The notes under the pieces: model-generated
Database searches by the model: none
What the model was told of the DNA's origin: nothing
Seen by the model: the letters and a program-made list of their open reading frames with translations, nothing else
Assembly (NCBI GenBank): GCA_021815305.1
Contig: JAKAHC010000001.1
Span: 434,001-498,000 of the forward strand
Length of the DNA: 64,000 nucleotides
Source of the DNA: Deltaproteobacteria bacterium
Lineage (GTDB): Bacteria; Desulfobacterota; Deferrimicrobia; Deferrimicrobiales; Deferrimicrobiaceae
Direction of reading: 5' to 3'
Program-made: the position numbers and the translations under genes
Shown: positions 17,004-25,254 of the stretch, in pieces
Position numbering within the stretch: the first letter of the stretch is position 1
Layout of the letters: each line of letters starts with the position of its first letter

Positions 17004-18599
17004 ATGAAGTGGTACAACCGCATCAGCCTGAAGATCACGCTGTACGTCGTGGGGATGATCCTGCTCGTGAACGGGGCGCTCGCCTACCGCTACCTTTCCA
17101 TCCAGAGAGAGACCCTCAACGCCGCGATCCTGAGAAACGCCATGCAGCTTAGCGAAACCATAAAGAAATCCATACAGAACGACATGATCGAGAACCGGAA
17201 GGATGCCGCCTACAAGATCATGGACACGATCGGGCGGCAGGAAGGGATCGAGCGGGTCCGCATCTACAGCAACGAGGGGAAAATCCTCTTCTCTTCCGAC
17301 AACAGCGAAGCGGGACGGATGGTCGACAAGCGGGCCGAGGCGTGCTACAGGTGCCACGCGGAGGCCCGGCCGATCGAGCGGCTGGCGCGGTCCGAGCGGA
17401 GCCGGATCTTTTTCTCCGACAACAGCACCGGGCACCCGGGGAAAGGGCGCCGCATCCTCGGGACCATCAACCCGCTGTACAACGAGAAGGGGTGCTCCTC
17501 CGCGGAGTGCCACGCGCACCCCGCGTCGAAGAAGGTCCTCGGGGTGATCGACGTCTCGATGGACCTGAGCGAGGTGGACGAACAGCTGGCCGGCGCGCAC
17601 CACCAGGTCCTGTTCGTGAGCATCATCTCGATCTTCGCGATCTGCACGATCTTCACGTTCACGCTCATCCACTTCATCGAGCGGCCGGTGAAGGAACTCG
17701 TCCTCGGCACGAAGAGGATCTCCGGGGGGGACCTGGACCATTTCATCCCCGTTGCGACGAACGATGAACTGGGGCAGCTGGCGTCGTCGTTCAACCAGAT
17801 GACCCGGGACCTGCAGAGGGCCCAGCAGGAGATCCAGGAGGGTATCCGGAACCTGGAGAACAAGGTCGAGGACCGGACGAAGGAGCTCAAGGCGGCGCAG
17901 TCCCAGCTCCTCCACTCCGAGAAGCTGGCGGCGGTCGGCGCGCTGGCAGCCACGGTGGCGCACGAGATCAACAACCCGCTGACCGGCGTCTATACCTACA
18001 TCCGCCTCATGGAACGGAAGATCGAACAGGGGCGGTACGGGGCGGCGGAGGCGGAAAAACACAGGGGGTATCTCGACACGATGCGGCGGGAGGTCGAGCG
18101 GACGACCGCCATCGTCCAGAACCTGCTCGACTTCACCCGCCCGAAGGAGCCGGTCCGGAAGCCGATGTCCCTCTCCAGGGTGATCGGGGAGTCCCTCGCC
18201 CTCATCCGGAACAAGCTGAGTCTCAACAACATCCAGGTCGAGAACCTCCTGCCCCCGCTGCCGGACATCGTGGCGGACCCGGCGCACATGAAGCAGGTGT
18301 TCCTCAACCTGCTGGTCAACGCCTGCGAGGCCATGGAGGGCGGGGGAACGCTGACGATCCGCGGCGGGTGCGACGCGCAGGGGAACACGGTGACGGTGAC
18401 CGTGCGGGACACGGGCATCGGGATCGAGGCGGAGAACCTCGCGCGGATCTTCGACCCCTTCTTCTCCACGAAGAAGAAGGGGACCGGGCTCGGGCTCTCG
18501 GTGGTGAACGGCATCGTCTCCCGCCACAACGGGAAGGTGGGCATCGAAAGCGCTCCGGGGAAAGGAACGCTTCTCCGGGTCACGCTCCCCATTTCGTAG
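17004..18599 (+). CDS. Membrane histidine kinase with c-type heme motifs in its sensor domain
   Basis: A 531-residue sensor kinase. TM1 is at about residues 11-30, a periplasmic sensor domain at 31-200, TM2 at about 202-224, HAMP at about 225-278, a coiled coil, a HisKA with the phosphoacceptor H320 in HEINNPL, and a HATPase domain (NLLVNACEAM, DTGIGI, FDPFFSTKKKGTGLGLS). The sensor domain contains CYRCH (C114-H118), a canonical c-heme attachment motif, and CSSAECH (C164-H170), an atypical CX4CH. Periplasmic heme-based redox or gas sensing is inferred. There is no Shine-Dalgarno; the start is at the last codon compatible with TM1. Its partner regulator is two genes downstream, with a metalloprotease between them. 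Confidence 0.92.
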   Translation: MKWYNRISLKITLYVVGMILLVNGALAYRYLSIQRETLNAAILRNAMQLSETIKKSIQNDMIENRKDAAYKIMDTIGRQEGIERVRIYSNEGKILFSSDNSEAGRMVDKRAEACYRCHAEARPIERLARSERSRIFFSDNSTGHPGKGRRILGTINPLYNEKGCSSAECHAHPASKKVLGVIDVSMDLSEVDEQLAGAHHQVLFVSIISIFAICTIFTFTLIHFIERPVKELVLGTKRISGGDLDHFIPVATNDELGQLASSFNQMTRDLQRAQQEIQEGIRNLENKVEDRTKELKAAQSQLLHSEKLAAVGALAATVAHEINNPLTGVYTYIRLMERKIEQGRYGAAEAEKHRGYLDTMRREVERTTAIVQNLLDFTRPKEPVRKPMSLSRVIGESLALIRNKLSLNNIQVENLLPPLPDIVADPAHMKQVFLNLLVNACEAMEGGGTLTIRGGCDAQGNTVTVTVRDTGIGIEAENLARIFDPFFSTKKKGTGLGLSVVNGIVSRHNGKVGIESAPGKGTLLRVTLPIS

Positions 18600-18650: not shown

Positions 18651-19169
18651 GTGAACCCGGGGATCCTTGCGTGGCTGAGGAAGGAAATGGCCGACTGCCT
18701 GTTGACGACCACAAGGGACATGGCGGCGATGCCGGTCCCACCGGAGAGCCTGCAGGCCGGGCGGAACCAGTACTACTCGACCCGGATCCTCAAGGAGATG
18801 CTCAAGGAGGTCCCGGCGGACGCGCTCAAGCTGCTGGGCGTGACCGAGAAGGACCTCTGCATCCCGATCCTCACGTACGTGTTCGGCGAGGCCCAGCTCG
18901 GGGGAACGGTCGCCGTGGTCTCGCTGGCCAGGCTGCGCCAGGAATTCCACGGCCTTCCTCCGGACCGCCCCCTGTTCCTTTCGCGGCTGCGCAAGGAGAG
19001 CCTCCACGAACTGGGGCACACGTTCGGGCTCGTCCACTGCAGGTCGCGGGAATGCGTGATGTCCCTGTCCAACACGGTATCCGACGTGGACGGGAAGGGT
19101 TCGGACTTCTGCCGCTATTGCCGGGCGATGGTGGCATCCGGTGCGGACGCGGGAAGGAGAGGAGGATGA
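18651..19169 (+). CDS. Archaemetzincin-type zinc metalloprotease
   Basis: A metzincin-clan peptidase of the archaemetzincin family. The active site HELGHTFGLVHC (H119, E120, H123, H129) is followed by C135, the Met-turn-like M137, and CRYC (C154, C157). This is the family's zinc site plus an extra four-cysteine zinc site. Counting starts at the GTG at 18651. However, the reading frame upstream still encodes the expected family N-terminus (GGIVYIRPVGEV) with no ATG, GTG or TTG back to the kinase stop at 18597. An ATC at 18615, 8 bp after GGAGCG, is a possible non-canonical start. The stop overlaps the regulator ATG (ATGA). Substrate unknown. Confidence 0.88.
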   Translation: MNPGILAWLRKEMADCLLTTTRDMAAMPVPPESLQAGRNQYYSTRILKEMLKEVPADALKLLGVTEKDLCIPILTYVFGEAQLGGTVAVVSLARLRQEFHGLPPDRPLFLSRLRKESLHELGHTFGLVHCRSRECVMSLSNTVSDVDGKGSDFCRYCRAMVASGADAGRRGG

Positions 19170-20533
19170 CCATGGAGAAGGAAGTCAACATCCTGGTGGT
19201 GGACGACGAGGAAATCGTCCGGGACTCCCTGGGCGGCTGGCTCGAGGAGGACGGGTACGGCGTGGAAGCGGTGGAAAGCGGGAAGAAGGCGCTGGAGCGC
19301 CTTCCCGAGCGGAGCTGGGACCTGATGCTGGTGGACCTGAAGATGCCCGGGATGGACGGGATCCAGCTGATGGACGAGGTCCGCAAGACGCACCCGGACA
19401 TGCTGATCATCATCATGACCGCCTACGCGACCGTCGACACCGCGGTGAAGGCGATGAAGAAGGGCGCCTACGACTATTTCGTGAAGCCGTTCAATCCCGA
19501 CGATATTTCCCTGACGATCCGCAAGATCGTGGACCACCACCGGCTGGTGAAGGAGAACCTCTTCCTCCGCAAGGAGCTGAAGAAGAAGTACAAGCTCCAC
19601 GACATGATCAGCAAGAACGAGAAGATGCTGGAGATCTTCGAACTGGCGCGGACCGTCGCGAAGAGCGGCTCCACGGTCCTCATCCAGGGCGAAAGCGGAA
19701 CGGGCAAGGAGCTGCTGGCGCGCGCGATCCACGACGAGAGCCCCCGGGCGGATGCGCCGTTCATCTCCGTTTCCTGCGCGTCGCTCACCGAAAGTCTGCT
19801 CGAGAGCGAGCTCTTCGGACACGAGAAGGGCGCGTTCACGGGCGCGACCGCCATCAAGCGGGGAAAGCTCGAGCTGGCCCAGGACGGAACCCTGTTTTTG
19901 GACGAGATTGGGGACATCAGTCTCAAGCTGCAGATGGATCTTCTCCGGGTCCTCGAACAGAAGGAGTTCCGCCGCGTCGGCGGAACGGATCTTCTCCCCA
20001 TCACCTCGCGGATCCTGGCGGCGACGAACCGGGACCTGCAGAAGGCGATCGACGCGGGACTCTTCCGCGCCGACCTCTACTACCGCCTGAACGTCATTTC
20101 GATCCACCTCCCTCCCCTGCGGGAGCGGAGGGAGGATATCCCGTTCCTGGTGGACCATTTCGTCGGGAAATTCAACATCGAGATGGGAAAGGAGATCCAG
20201 GGCGTGAGCGAGGAGGCCGTGCGGGCCCTGATGAACCACGACTGGCCGGGGAACGCAAGGGAACTGCGGAACGTCATCGAGCGGGCCATGGTCGTGGCGA
20301 AGGAGCACATCATCACCGAGGCGGACATCAGCCTGTCCGTCCCGCCGGGAGGCGGGAACCACCGGACGAAATCCCTCGAAGAGATCGAGAAGGCGCACAT
20401 CCGGCTGGTGCTCTCCGAAAACCAGTGGAACGTCGCGCGGTCCGCCCAGGTGCTCGGGATCGACCGGGTCACCCTGTACAACAAGATCAGGAAATTCGAT
20501 CTCAAGCGGGAGACGATCGCGCCGAAGACGTAG
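19166..20533 (+). CDS. Sigma-54-dependent response regulator (NtrC/AtoC type)
   Basis: A 455-residue regulator. The receiver domain (residues 8-120) has phospho-site D57 in LMLVDLKMPG. The AAA+ domain (about 145-380) has Walker A GESGTGKE (175-182), the sigma-54 contact loop GAFTGA (222-227), Walker B LFLDEIGD and the arginine-finger segment. A C-terminal Fis-type HTH (NQWNVARSAQVLGIDRVTLYNKI) completes it. All features needed to activate sigma-54 polymerase are intact. It overlaps the archaemetzincin gene by 4 bp and lies 206 bp before a strong sigma-54 promoter, its probable target. Confidence 0.96.
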   Translation: MTMEKEVNILVVDDEEIVRDSLGGWLEEDGYGVEAVESGKKALERLPERSWDLMLVDLKMPGMDGIQLMDEVRKTHPDMLIIIMTAYATVDTAVKAMKKGAYDYFVKPFNPDDISLTIRKIVDHHRLVKENLFLRKELKKKYKLHDMISKNEKMLEIFELARTVAKSGSTVLIQGESGTGKELLARAIHDESPRADAPFISVSCASLTESLLESELFGHEKGAFTGATAIKRGKLELAQDGTLFLDEIGDISLKLQMDLLRVLEQKEFRRVGGTDLLPITSRILAATNRDLQKAIDAGLFRADLYYRLNVISIHLPPLRERREDIPFLVDHFVGKFNIEMGKEIQGVSEEAVRALMNHDWPGNARELRNVIERAMVVAKEHIITEADISLSVPPGGGNHRTKSLEEIEKAHIRLVLSENQWNVARSAQVLGIDRVTLYNKIRKFDLKRETIAPKT

Positions 20534-20738: not shown

Positions 20739-20753
20739 CGGCACGGGCATTGC
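20739..20753 (+). promoter_or_regulatory. Sigma-54 (-24/-12) promoter
   Basis: CGGCAC-GGGCA-TTGC matches the consensus TGGCAC-N5-TTGC at all specified positions except the first T. It lies 49 bp upstream of the small membrane peptide gene and directly downstream of an operon encoding a sigma-54 activator. Confidence 0.8.
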
Positions 20754-20801: not shown

Positions 20802-20882
20802 ATGGCGTTCCTGATGTTCGGCGTCATCTACCTCGTTCTCGGCGTCGTTGCGGTGATGAAGCCGCGGGATGGGCACGCGTGA
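20802..20882 (+). CDS. 26-residue single-span membrane peptide
   Basis: ATG with an excellent GGGAGGTGGG ribosome site encodes 26 aa: a hydrophobic helix (FLMFGVIYLVLGVVAVM) and a short charged tail (KPRDGHA), ending TGA. Size and position, as the first gene of a respiratory-type operon behind a sigma-54 promoter, recall the tiny accessory subunits of membrane oxidases. No homologue is recognised. The functional assignment as a complex subunit is inference. Confidence 0.65.
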   Translation: MAFLMFGVIYLVLGVVAVMKPRDGHA

Positions 20883-20940: not shown

Positions 20941-21651
20941 ATGAAAGAGCGGAAGTGCCCCTTTCTGGAGACGAAGACTGTGACGTTCTGCAAGGCGTTC
21001 CCGGTGAAGATGATCCCTCTCGACAAGATGTCTTCCCTGGACTGCCTCTGCGAGACGACCAGCTTCCAGGAATGCTCCCTTTACAACGAAATCAGCCACG
21101 CCGCCGAGGGGAAGGAGAACCTTCGCGGGTTTTCCCTGAAATCGGACTATTACTACCACCCCAAGCACCTCTGGGTCTCCCCGTCGCCCGAAAACGCCGG
21201 AGAGGCCCGGGTCGGCATCGACGATTTCGCGGCGCGGCTGATCGGGAAGATCGACCGGGCATCGATTCCCGGCGCCGACATGCCGGTGAAGGAGAACAGC
21301 GTCTGCTTCCTCCTTCATTCCGGGCGAAGGACCGTCCGCCTCGCTTCTCCCGCGGACGGCGTCATCAGGACCGTCAACCCCAGGTTGGCCGACAATCCCT
21401 CCGTCCTGAACGAGGACCCGTACCTGGAGGGATGGATCTTCTCCATGCAGATCAAGGGGGACGCCCTGAACGGGCTGTACCACGGCACCGTCGCCGGAAA
21501 ATGGTTCGAGTCCGAGATCGAAAGGCTGCAGCGGACGTTCTCCTCCGACCTTGGCATGACGGCTACGGACGGCGGAGAGGCGCTCACGGATATCAGCAGC
21601 CGGTTCAACGACGCCCAGTGGGGAAAAATCGTCAGCCAATTCCTCGGGTAA
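20941..21651 (+). CDS. GcvH-like protein with cysteine-rich N-terminus
   Basis: A 236-residue soluble protein. Residues 1-60 carry five cysteines (C6, C17, C35, C37, C45), possibly a metal or Fe-S site. Residues ~68-160 resemble glycine-cleavage H protein: YYYHPKHLWVS, ARVGIDDFAARLIGKID, SPADGVIRTVNPRL, EDPYLEGWIF. The H-protein lipoylation motif ESVKA is absent; R129-R130 occupy the region, so lipoylation is unlikely. A C-terminal ~70-residue region is shared in outline with the two later paralogues. The ATG at 20941 is chosen for its GGAGGAGAGG site. Function unknown; probably a cytoplasmic component of the complex encoded here. Confidence 0.8.
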   Translation: MKERKCPFLETKTVTFCKAFPVKMIPLDKMSSLDCLCETTSFQECSLYNEISHAAEGKENLRGFSLKSDYYYHPKHLWVSPSPENAGEARVGIDDFAARLIGKIDRASIPGADMPVKENSVCFLLHSGRRTVRLASPADGVIRTVNPRLADNPSVLNEDPYLEGWIFSMQIKGDALNGLYHGTVAGKWFESEIERLQRTFSSDLGMTATDGGEALTDISSRFNDAQWGKIVSQFLG

Positions 21652-21667
21652 CGCAAGGAGGTGCGCC

Positions 21668-22345
21668 ATGGTGGTCCTTCTCGTCCTGCTCACGATTCTT
21701 GGATGCATCGCCGTCGAACTGGCGCTGCGACGAAGGGAAGAGCGCAGGGTCGCAAGATCCCTCGGCAGCGAGGAGACGGCCAGGTTTCTCCCCGGCCTGG
21801 CGGACCCGCCGCTACTCGGGTGCGTCTTCCTCCACAGCGGCCACACCTGGGCCAGGTTCGACCCCTCCGGCGCCGTGAAGGTGGGGCTGGACGGATTCGC
21901 CCAGGGGATCCTCGGAAGGGTCGACCGGTTCGAGCTTCCCGAAGAGGGTGCGGTCGTGCGGCAGGGGGAACCGGCGTTCGCGGCCCTCCAGGCGGGGAAG
22001 AGGATCGAGTTCGTTTCCCCGGTCGACGGCGTCGTCTGCGCGGTGAACACGCCGATCAACGACAACCGGCCGGCCGCGAAGAAAGAGCCCTATGACAAGG
22101 GATGGGCCTTCGCGATCCTCCCGTCCAACCTCACCAGGAACATGAAGAAGCTGCGGTTCGGGTCCGAGGCCTCCGAATGGCTCGCGAAAGAAGTGAAGAG
22201 CTTCTCCGAGTTTCTGGTCCTTCACCGGGCGATCCCGCAGGAGGTGGGCGCCACCCTGCCGGACGGCGGCACGCACGTCGAGGGGATCCTGGAGACGATG
22301 GACGGGGAGATCCTGCAGACCGCGATACGGAAATATTTCCGCTGA
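21668..22345 (+). CDS. Membrane-anchored GcvH-like protein
   Basis: A 225-residue protein with an N-terminal membrane helix (VVLLVLLTILGCIAVELAL) followed by RRREERR, which predicts the rest to be cytoplasmic. The GcvH-like domain is at about residues 50-150 (LHSGHTWARFD, VKVGLDGFAQGILGRVD, SPVDGVVCAVN, EPYDKGWAF). The ESVKA motif is missing. K111 (AGKRIEF) lies within one residue of the lipoyl-lysine position, so modification cannot be fully excluded. The AAGGAGG site lies 6 bp before ATG. It is 16 bp downstream of the first GcvH-like gene. Confidence 0.8.
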   Translation: MVVLLVLLTILGCIAVELALRRREERRVARSLGSEETARFLPGLADPPLLGCVFLHSGHTWARFDPSGAVKVGLDGFAQGILGRVDRFELPEEGAVVRQGEPAFAALQAGKRIEFVSPVDGVVCAVNTPINDNRPAAKKEPYDKGWAFAILPSNLTRNMKKLRFGSEASEWLAKEVKSFSEFLVLHRAIPQEVGATLPDGGTHVEGILETMDGEILQTAIRKYFR

Positions 22346-22371
22346 AGCGGGAATTCACGGAGGGATGAAAA

Positions 22372-23268
22372 ATGGCCATCAACAGAAGGGATTTCCTGAA
22401 GGTCGCCGGAACGGCCGGGGCCCTGCTCGCAGGAGCGAGACCGGCGCAGGCGGCGCACGCCGTCCGGACGGATGTGGAGTTCTACGGGCTCCTCATCGAC
22501 ACGACGAAGTGCATCGGCTGCCGCTCCTGCGAGGAGGCGTGCAACGCCAAGAACGGGCTGCCCAAACCGGAAGTCTCCTTCTCCAGCGAAAGCGTGTTCG
22601 AGAAGAAACGGGACACCACGCCGGAAGCCTTCACGGTCCTGAACCGGTTCCCGAACGAAAAGAGCCCGGACAAGCCGATCTTCGTCCGGAGGCAGTGCAT
22701 GCATTGCACCGAGCCCTCCTGCGCCTCGGCGTGCCTGTGCAAGGCGATGGTGAAGACGCCCGAGGGACCGACCGTCTACCACAAGGACCGCTGCATGGGT
22801 TGCAGGTACTGCATGGTCTCCTGCCCCTTCGACATCCCGAAGTTCGAATACGACAGCCCCTCGCCCTTCGTGCGGAAATGCATCGGCTGTCCCGACCTCG
22901 TGGCGAAGGGGGAGCCGACCGCGTGCGCCCAGGCGTGCCCCGAGGGAGCGACCCTGTTCGGAAAACGGCGGGAGCTGATCGAGGAGGCCAGGAGACGGAT
23001 CTACCAGAGCCAGGACCGGTACTACCCGCACATCTACGGGGAGCACGAGGTCGGAGGGACGGGGTACATGTTCCTCTCCGCGGTCCCCTTCGAGAAGATC
23101 GGGGTCCGGACCGACCTGGGAACAAAGAATTATCCCGAGCTGACCTCCGGGTTCCTGTCCTCCGTGCCGCTCGTGGACATTCTCTGGCCGGCGGTCTTGT
23201 TCGGATTCAACTATCTCGTTTCCGGCAAGGAAAAAGAGGACACGAAGGAGGACGGTCATGGAGAGTAA
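22372..23268 (+). CDS. Tat-exported ferredoxin subunit with four [4Fe-4S] motifs (HybA/DsrO-like)
   Basis: A 298-residue electron-transfer protein. The Tat signal NRRDFLKVAG plus hydrophobic region at residues 4-27 predicts export. Sixteen cysteines form four cluster motifs: C47-C57, C109-C121, C141-C151 and C170-C189. A C-terminal helix (about 265-284, PLVDILWPAVLFGFNYLVSG) would anchor it, as in HybA. Family members pass electrons between a catalytic subunit and an NrfD/HybB-type quinone-reactive protein, encoded next here with an 11-bp overlap. No catalytic partner gene is present in the window. Confidence 0.92.
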   Translation: MAINRRDFLKVAGTAGALLAGARPAQAAHAVRTDVEFYGLLIDTTKCIGCRSCEEACNAKNGLPKPEVSFSSESVFEKKRDTTPEAFTVLNRFPNEKSPDKPIFVRRQCMHCTEPSCASACLCKAMVKTPEGPTVYHKDRCMGCRYCMVSCPFDIPKFEYDSPSPFVRKCIGCPDLVAKGEPTACAQACPEGATLFGKRRELIEEARRRIYQSQDRYYPHIYGEHEVGGTGYMFLSAVPFEKIGVRTDLGTKNYPELTSGFLSSVPLVDILWPAVLFGFNYLVSGKEKEDTKEDGHGE

Positions 23269-24565
23269 CGTCAAGCCGATGCCCGCCGCCGGAAGAATGC
23301 CCGTTCCCGACACGGGCACGCTTTCGGGCTTTCTGCGGTTCTTCCTGCAGGAGCTCAAGCCCAAGGGGAAGGTCCTGACGCCGTTCAACGTCATCACGGG
23401 GATCATCATCCTGGTCGGGATCGGCATCATCGCCGTCCGGTTCGCGAAAGGGCTGGGCGCGGTGACGAACCTGTCCCAGGCGTACCCCTGGGGGATCTGG
23501 ATCGGTTTCGACGTCGTGACGGGCGTGGCCTTCGCCGGAGGCGCGTACATCCTGACCTTCGCCGTCCACATCCTGAAGGTGAAGAAATACGAGCCCATCG
23601 TCCGGGCCACGGTGCTGAACGGGTTCCTGGCGTACGTCTTCTACAGCGGCGCGCTGCTGCTCGACCTGGGCCGCCCCTGGAACGTGATCAACCCGATCGT
23701 CGGGCGCGGGTTCGGCTACGGCTCGGTGCTCTTCCTCGTCGCGTGGCACTTCCTGCTGTACACCCTGTGCCTGTTCGTCGAGACGGCCCCGGCGGCCGCC
23801 GAGTGGCTCCGGTGGGTCAAGGCGCGGCGGATCCTCCGGAAGATGACCACCGCGACCGTCATCCTGGGCGTGACGCTGTCCACGCTGCACCAGGCGGGCC
23901 TGGGAGGGCTGTTCCTGACGGCGCCCGCCAAGATCCACCCGCTGTGGTATTCGTCCAACATCCCGGTCCTGTTCTTCATCTCGAGCATGTTCGCCGGGTT
24001 CTCGATGATCATCATCGAGAGCCGGTTCACGCACAGGATCTTCTCGGACCGGGTCGATGCGGAGCATCACGCGTCCCACGACAGGATCCTCCTCGGCCTC
24101 GGGAAGGGTTCGGCCAGCGTCATGTCCGCCTACCTGTTCCTGAAGGTCATCGACCTGACCCACGGCCACCAATGGGGCATGCTGCTCACCCCGATGGGCT
24201 TCTGGTACCTGGTGGAGGTCCTGGGGTTCACGCTCGTTCCCCTGGTCCTCTACGTCGCCGCCATCCGGAAGCGGAGCGTGGAACTCGTCCGGAACACCGC
24301 TTTCCTCACTGCGGTCGGCGTGATCCTCAACCGGCTGAACATCTCCGTGATCGCCTTCAAGTGGTACGAGGCGGTGCGGTACTACCCCTCCATCGGGGAG
24401 ATCTGGGTCACCCTGGCGGTCATCAGCATGGAGCTTTGGGTGTTCCGGTGGGTCATCAACCGCATGCCGATCCTCGGGGAGCATCCCGACTTCAAGTCGG
24501 GAAAGGAATCCGCGAAAGAAACCAATAACCCGGAGGTAGTGAGATGGACGGTTTCAGCTTCGTAG
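23258..24565 (+). CDS. NrfD/HybB-type integral membrane protein
   Basis: A 435-residue polytopic protein with about eight to ten helices. The segment AYPWGIWIGFDVVTGVAFAGG is the signature of the HybB/DsrP branch of the NrfD family, which exchanges electrons with the quinone pool without its own heme. Further conserved parts are YVFYSGALLLDLGRPWN and TLHQAGLGGLF. It overlaps both neighbours (ferredoxin 11 bp, third GcvH-like 22 bp). Together with the ferredoxin it would form a quinone-linked membrane module. Confidence 0.93.
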   Translation: MESNVKPMPAAGRMPVPDTGTLSGFLRFFLQELKPKGKVLTPFNVITGIIILVGIGIIAVRFAKGLGAVTNLSQAYPWGIWIGFDVVTGVAFAGGAYILTFAVHILKVKKYEPIVRATVLNGFLAYVFYSGALLLDLGRPWNVINPIVGRGFGYGSVLFLVAWHFLLYTLCLFVETAPAAAEWLRWVKARRILRKMTTATVILGVTLSTLHQAGLGGLFLTAPAKIHPLWYSSNIPVLFFISSMFAGFSMIIIESRFTHRIFSDRVDAEHHASHDRILLGLGKGSASVMSAYLFLKVIDLTHGHQWGMLLTPMGFWYLVEVLGFTLVPLVLYVAAIRKRSVELVRNTAFLTAVGVILNRLNISVIAFKWYEAVRYYPSIGEIWVTLAVISMELWVFRWVINRMPILGEHPDFKSGKESAKETNNPEVVRWTVSAS

Positions 24566-25254
24566 ACATCTATTCGACGAAGGGGATCGAGTACATCGTC
24601 GCGGTGGTCTTCTTCTTCGGCTTCCTGGCGCTGCAGTGGTACCTGCTGGCGCCCGCCCCGGGGGAACGGAAGGCGCAGGAGCCGAAGGCGGGCTTCACGG
24701 AATGGTTCCGCGTGCCCGACGGATACAATTTCCACCAGGGGCACAGCTGGATGAAGATGGACCTCCTCCGGTCCGGCAGCCACGGGATCCTGCGCGTCGG
24801 GCTGGACGACTTCGCGCAGAAGCTCGTCGGAAGGGTGGAATCCGTCGAACTGCCGGCCGTGGGCTCCCGACTCGCGCAGGGGGACATGGGGTGGAGCCTC
24901 GTCGTCGATTCCGTCCCCGTCCCGATGCTCTCCCCCGTGGATGGCGAGGTGGTGGAGGTGAACCCGGAGGTTCTCCGGAACCCCGCGGTCCTGAGCGAGG
25001 ATCCGTACGGGAAGGGGTGGCTGCTCAAGGTCCGTTCCGAAAGGATCGGCGCGGACACCCGGAATCTCCTGTCGGGGAAAGTGGCCAGGGCGTGGATGGA
25101 GGACGCTCTGGAGAAACTCCATCCGATCCGGCACGAAACCGTGGGTCCGGTCCTGCAGGACGGTGGTCTCCCCGTCGACGGGCTTGCGAAGGCCCTCGGG
25201 GGGGACCGCTGGAACGAAGTCGCAAGGACGCACCTGCTGACGGACGTAAAGTAG
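24544..25254 (+). CDS. Membrane-anchored GcvH-like protein, last gene of sigma-54 operon
   Basis: A 236-residue protein. A helix at residues 16-35 (EYIVAVVFFFGFLALQWYLL) is followed by basic residues, predicting a cytoplasmic C-terminal domain. The GcvH-like region is at about 58-160: FHQGHSWMKMD, LRVGLDDFAQKLVGRVE, SPVDGEVVEVNPEVL, EDPYGKGWLL. At the lipoyl position DSVPVPM replaces ESVKAAS, so there is no acceptor lysine. The start is preceded by GGAGGT. Third GcvH-like copy in the operon; role unknown, possibly a scaffold for the membrane complex. Confidence 0.8.
   Translation: MDGFSFVDIYSTKGIEYIVAVVFFFGFLALQWYLLAPAPGERKAQEPKAGFTEWFRVPDGYNFHQGHSWMKMDLLRSGSHGILRVGLDDFAQKLVGRVESVELPAVGSRLAQGDMGWSLVVDSVPVPMLSPVDGEVVEVNPEVLRNPAVLSEDPYGKGWLLKVRSERIGADTRNLLSGKVARAWMEDALEKLHPIRHETVGPVLQDGGLPVDGLAKALGGDRWNEVARTHLLTDVK

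Follow-up and report, generated by a model that had tools for sequence, protein, structure and literature searches.

Lysine-less H-protein folds encoded with an HmcBC/HybAB-like membrane module form a distinct family

We analysed a stretch of 64,000 nucleotides from a Deltaproteobacteria bacterium (Desulfobacterota, Deferrimicrobiaceae; GenBank assembly GCA_021815305.1, contig JAKAHC010000001.1, positions 434,001–498,000 of the forward strand), hereafter referred to as the window. It contains an operon with three genes, g1, g2 and g3, whose products resemble the glycine cleavage H-protein GcvH. The gene order is sensor histidine kinase, archaemetzincin, NtrC-type regulator, σ54 promoter element, micro-ORF (open reading frame), g1, g2, HmcB/HybA-like protein, HmcC/HybB-like protein and g3; all features lie on the plus strand and are given in window positions. 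The g1 gene (20941–21651) encodes a soluble protein of 236 amino acids with a Cys-rich N-terminus (C6, C17, C35, C37 and C45). Membrane-anchored proteins are encoded by g2 (21668–22345, 225 amino acids) and g3 (24544–25254, 236 amino acids). Towards the C-terminus each product carries a D-G-G element (residues 210–212 in g1, 199–201 in g2 and 206–208 in g3). The original prediction, made from the sequence, had described three GcvH-like reading frames without a lipoylation motif here, and this observation was confirmed.

The Pfam GCV_H model matched g1, g2 and g3 with 62–71 bits each (cut-off 22.2). Scores against the GcvH models remained under the cut-offs, at 57–67 versus 115.85 bits for TIGR00527 and 58–77 versus 117 for PRK01202. 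The H-protein landmarks listed in the prediction are common to all three proteins, except that its VG-DDFA element reads VGLDGFA in g2. Alignment with the canonical GcvH of the same genome, which carries the ESVKA motif, placed R129 of g1 (followed by R130), G110 of g2 (followed by K111) and S123 of g3 (followed by V124) in the column of the lipoyl lysine; in g2 and g3 these pairs form the hairpin tip. The residues originally proposed were right for g1 and g2, while P125, proposed for g3, lies two positions too far. A lysine conserved at the hairpin tip of all three copies was looked for and is not there.

Structural models from AlphaFold were available for g1 and g3, with a mean pLDDT (predicted local distance difference test) of 83.4 and 86.7, respectively; the fold of g2 was assigned from its sequence profile alone. 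In Foldseek comparisons both models overlaid the solved H-protein 3a8j_E with a target TM (template modelling) score of 0.92–0.93 and a root-mean-square deviation of 1.2–1.4 Å. In the models the hairpin turn is formed by residues 128–129 in g1 and 122–123 in g3.

No membrane segment was detected in g1, and one N-terminal segment was detected in each of g2 and g3. Among relatives with a clear segment, positive charge is mostly found after it (52 of 63 for g3, 37 of 42 for g2), and the H-fold domain of g2 and g3 is therefore predicted to be cytoplasmic. The segment counts and the charge distribution agree with the earlier assignment of two anchored copies with a cytoplasmic domain and one soluble copy. 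The membrane-entry segment of g3 is unusually conserved, with T12, K13, E16 and Y17 present at ≥90%. Soluble members share a conserved Cys-rich N-terminus, which reads CPFLE...TFC or C-[IV]-W-M-x-A-G...C...DC..C (g1, window 20941–21100; L044:4767-5690, L045:6194-8196, L046:5744-6691). This segment gave no family match above threshold, but may bind a metal or an Fe-S cluster.

To describe the family, we aligned 203 relatives drawn from about 100 loci and left the lysine-keeping protein of locus L057 out of the counts; the g1, g2 and g3 labels of distant members are best-profile assignments that do not imply orthology. Lysine occupies the canonical position in 15 of the 203 sequences and is lost in the other 188, and the E-S preceding it is mostly lost as well. 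The neighbouring (+1) position is basic in 134 of the 203 (K in 69, R in 65). Among g3-type sequences K is found at +1 in 47 of 91, a count that, like the D-G-G percentages below, takes in L057; the earlier statement that only the second copy keeps a lysine nearby thus holds for the window and fails for the family. Each residue of the C-terminal D-G-G extension is conserved at 83–100% in each type, and the extension is absent from canonical GcvH. In a maximum-likelihood tree the family was split from canonical H-proteins and from a lysine-keeping S-G-K-W-V-G class with branch support 100/99, although one lysine-keeping row (L057) carried the family label; the inner forks are weak because the alignment has few columns. 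We conclude that g1, g2 and g3 are members of a distinct, previously undescribed family of lysine-less H-folds. Lipoylation at the canonical site is ruled out by R129, G110 and S123 at that position and by the presence of K in only 15 of 203 relatives. The fold match, the loss of lysine in about 200 relatives, the separate clade and an intact gcvH-gcvP pair elsewhere in the genome support the proposal of the original prediction that the H-protein fold is reused without lipoylation; it had not included the D-G-G extension, the conserved partner genes or the link to HdrA flavoproteins. Two loci show further arrangements: four tandem D-G-G H-fold genes in L038:6153-9112, and a 596-amino-acid protein in L153:4188-5978 with the D-G-G H-fold domain after about 400 residues without a Pfam match.

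The canonical gcvH of the genome, with its ESVKA motif, is located on another contig (C3:24007-24357) and adjoins gcvP (C3:22692-23987), the only gcvP found; none is present near g1–g3. Identity of g1–g3 with canonical GcvH is ruled out by the absence of lysine, the scores below the GcvH cut-offs and the separate gcvH-gcvP pair. Two more GcvH-like genes are present in the genome, on contigs C5 (ESQK) and C7 (no lysine). The C7 gene (L158:6014-6400 = G000:C7:116025-116378) reads ESSST, lacks the D-G-G extension, and starts within the last part of a folD-like gene; in L176 a relative of its product has ESSWS. Members of the lysine-keeping class, with the S-G-K-W-V-G hairpin, are encoded at L057:5569-5997 and L163:6075-6503. 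Both genes adjoin an HdrC-like and an HdrB-like gene (three lysine-keeping surroundings were examined; both scored proteins come from L163), and in their surroundings these proteins are possibly LbpA-like.

Two genes between g2 and g3 encode a putative membrane module. The HmcB/HybA-like protein (22372–23268) is predicted to be exported by the twin-arginine translocation pathway; it contains 17 Cys, with motifs for four [4Fe-4S] clusters, and has a hydrophobic tail at its C-terminus. The HmcC/HybB-like protein (23258–24565) is an NrfD-type membrane subunit. The best family matches were NF045715 (HmcB; 345 bits versus a cut-off of 420) and NF045714 (HmcC; 415 versus 550), both below cut-off, and neither protein reached the cut-offs of the HybA and HybB models. 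A canonical Hmc complex or hydrogenase-2 is ruled out by these scores. No ORF for an HmcA multihaem cytochrome and none for the hydrogenase subunits HybO and HybC was found between 17004 and 25794. In Escherichia coli HybB, according to the NrfD family review, replacement of R89, Y99, E148 or H184 impairs H2 oxidation (PMC8076601). These residues are matched by R116, Y126, E175 and H211 of the window protein, and their equivalents are near-invariant in relatives (75–78 of 78). Since R, Y, E and H are kept at the functional positions of HybB, the HmcC/HybB-like protein is likely to be a working quinone-reactive, ion-coupled subunit. In the window the first 22 nt of g3 lie within the HmcC-like gene; overlaps of this length were found in 19 loci and of 4 nt in 5, which suggests translational coupling of g3 and its HmcC-like partner.

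Upstream of g1 the operon carries regulatory genes. The sensor histidine kinase (17004–18599; Pfam HAMP, HisKA and HATPase) has the motifs C114-YRCH and C164-SSAECH in its predicted periplasmic sensor region. CxxCH is present in 58 of 58 full-length relatives checked, and a second CX4-5CH motif with longer spacing in every relative listed; these motifs are consistent with a predicted c-type haem on the periplasmic side. The archaemetzincin (peptidase family M54; 18651–19169) matched NF033823 with 154.8 bits (cut-off 145) and contains an intact HExxHxxGxxHC zinc motif, HELGHTFGLVHC, kept in 57 of 61 relatives. It is followed by an NtrC-type σ54-dependent response regulator (19163–20533; Pfam Response_reg, Sigma54_activat and HTH_8). 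A −24/−12 promoter element, GGCACGGGCATTGC (20740–20753), is the sole match to GGYAC-N5-TTGC in the window, where 0.36 matches are expected. It is identically placed in most relatives from the host's own family and was found in 11 of 56 other operons; the element is therefore well supported only in the host's own family. Between it and g1 lies a micro-ORF of 26 codons with a single membrane segment (MAFLMFGVIYLVLGVVAVMKPRDGHA; 20802–20882). Most relatives from the host's family have a similar peptide (about 22–30 codons) with a strong ribosome-binding site in this position. A hydrophobic upstream ORF was seen in 6 of 56 other operons, of which two are closely related to the window, and not in most other phyla; the micro-ORF is therefore excluded from the wider cassette.

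Scanning species genomes yielded 145 relatives of g3. The phylum survey of the cassette used the best 80 of these, with metagenome-assembled genomes taken by their labels: Deltaproteobacteria, Gemmatimonadota, Bacteroidetes, Chlorobiota, Calditrichota, Planctomycetota, Acidobacteria, Nitrospirae, Nitrospinae, Rokubacteria, Krumholzibacteriia, Eisenbacteria, Schekmanbacteria and Zixibacteria. Most of the 80 loci carry the same partners as the window, and the cassette is conserved in over ten phyla. Since g3 had served to pick these loci, we also turned to 247 genomes of the phylum sampled independently; the counts from this sample are lower bounds. At least 65 of the 247 genomes have full-length family members, in at least 85 clusters. 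An HmcC-like gene lies within 8 kb in at least 27 of the 85 clusters listed, and at least 50 of the 97 M54 genes listed are within 10 kb of a family member. In genome G219 a family member adjoins an M54 gene and has an NtrC-type gene close by.

At loci without HmcBC the H-fold domain is usually soluble, with a Cys-rich N-terminus, and is accompanied by the kinase, the NtrC-type regulator and often M54; it is often found near giant HdrA2/GltD flavoproteins. In L142 the D-G-G H-fold domain is fused to an HdrA-type protein, and in L138–L141 to one that combines ferredoxin, FlpD and HdrA-like parts; the L138 protein also matches Molydop_binding. No Hdr genes were found beside the window operon. 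Since the H-fold domain also occurs beside or fused to HdrA types, its partner would be a redox complex of either kind rather than the quinone module alone.

We propose that g1–g3 are non-lipoylated H-fold docking subunits on the cytoplasmic face of quinone or flavin redox complexes, induced by periplasmic redox sensing, and give this proposal an even chance. In the window the complex would be a quinone-reactive membrane module in which a periplasmic four-cluster ferredoxin (HmcB/HybA-like) sits on an ion-coupled NrfD subunit (HmcC/HybB-like). Proteins g2 and g3 would be held in the membrane beside the NrfD subunit. By analogy with relatives that are fused to HdrA flavoproteins or encoded beside them, the soluble Cys-rich g1 would form a bridge to a partner in the cytoplasm. 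The docking domain would thus be membrane-tethered with membrane complexes and soluble or fused with cytoplasmic ones. The redox state of the periplasm, or a haem ligand, may be sensed by the kinase with haem-c motifs, which would then induce the operon by way of the NtrC-type regulator and the σ54 promoter. The physical complex, the docking role, the g1 bridge and the inducing signal are all things we infer. Several points weigh against the proposal. In this genome g1 has no proven partner, since about 195 kb of the contig separate it from the HdrA2-like genes, and the cassette lacks a gene for a catalytic subunit. HmcC-like genes are missing within 8 kb of 58 of the 85 clusters listed in the phylum sample, and the quinone module can therefore not be a universal partner. 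The recurring genes are in part regulatory, and a signalling role also fits them.

In such a role, which we regard as rather unlikely, the H-fold proteins would report the redox or quinone state to the kinase and NtrC-type regulator, or serve as archaemetzincin substrates. The kinase, NtrC and M54 genes are the ones that recur in both quinone-type and HdrA-type loci, the M54 genes of the phylum sample lie near the family as counted above, and in the g3 model a linker of low confidence (pLDDT about 62), probably flexible, precedes the D-G-G region. However, a kinase and regulator normally accompany any inducible operon, g3 overlaps the HmcC-like gene and not the kinase, and the fusions seen involve flavoproteins, not kinases. 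In another reading, which we consider improbable, the H-folds would be chaperones in the assembly or maturation of the Fe-S/NrfD complex or of HdrA proteins. It would suit them that they are small accessory proteins whose genes accompany the complex, and that g1 is Cys-rich. However, membrane anchoring and multiplicity (up to four copies per locus) are unusual for maturation factors, and the fusions to HdrA-type proteins point to a permanent subunit.

Only slightly more probable is that a swinging group was kept, either as lipoate attached to a lysine at +1 or as another cofactor or ligand at the basic hairpin tip or old lipoyl cleft. The frequency of K or R at +1, the lysine-keeping class beside Hdr-type genes in the same phylum and LbpA, an example of an H-fold protein at work in an Hdr-like system (PMC6067878), speak for it. 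Yet R is about as frequent at +1 as K, which argues against a required amide link to a +1 lysine and makes a shifted lipoyl site unlikely; g1 and g3 of the window have no lysine at either position, the E-S is mostly gone, and no lipoyl ligase gene was recognised among the ORFs and Pfam matches of the window operon. Loss of the catalytic lysine could also mark decaying gcvH duplicates without function, to which we give almost no credence: the frames are open, near-invariant residues persist across many phyla, a new extension is conserved and the gene order recurs. Conservation across phyla rules such duplicates out.

Extending the docking proposal, the D-G-G H-folds might be a general cytoplasmic adaptor that plugs interchangeable NrfD quinone or HdrA flavin modules into metabolism without a lipoyl group, with the basic hairpin tip and old lipoyl cleft binding a new ligand or redox partner; they would then be a new class of respiratory complex subunit under haem-c/σ54 control. 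We offer this tentatively and think it doubtful. Matches to a glycine cleavage H-protein model are easily taken as glycine metabolism or lipoate use; the D-G-G family is neither, and marks an undescribed redox cassette across phyla. Anaerobic respiration seems to have put an old carrier fold to new use, and with the family it can be tested directly whether a carrier fold with a swinging arm can become a docking subunit. For bacterial archaemetzincins it suggests a context of redox sensing, σ54 control and quinone or flavin complexes; we found no papers that place them in such a system.

Compared with GcvH, the window proteins share the whole-domain fold and the landmarks HxW, VGxxDFA, SPxxGxVxxVN and DPYxxGW; they differ in lacking the lipoyl lysine, ES(V)KA and an adjacent gcvP, and in adding the N-terminal membrane or Cys-rich segment and the C-terminal D-G-G extension. 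The named GcvH-like families TIGR03077 (not_gcvH) and NF045810 (GcvH_rel_desulf) are likewise distinct from GcvH, but g1–g3 match them weakly, with 29–45 bits versus cut-offs of 144 and 150. LbpA, which belongs to the sHdr system of sulfur oxidation, carries lipoate and is essential together with sHdr (PMC6067878, PMC10332631). Like the D-G-G relatives that adjoin HdrA-type proteins, it is a GcvH-fold protein serving a redox system other than glycine cleavage; unlike LbpA, the D-G-G family has no lysine, and the window has no adjacent Hdr cluster. Both membrane-module proteins find their best family match in the Hmc complex (HmcB, HmcC), yet score below its cut-offs, have no adjacent HmcA gene and come with added H-fold proteins. 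With HybA/HybB of E. coli hydrogenase-2 the module shares the A-B gene order, with an 11-nt overlap, and the functional HybB residues; it differs in having no hydrogenase subunits and in falling below the HybA and HybB model cut-offs. We found no publications on the lysine-less H-fold family or its gene combination in a search that mostly did not cover subscription journals, and the NrfD family review (PMC8076601) does not mention GcvH-like partners. The H-protein fold and the NrfD and Hdr modules are known, and their combination and the lysine-less subfamily are new.

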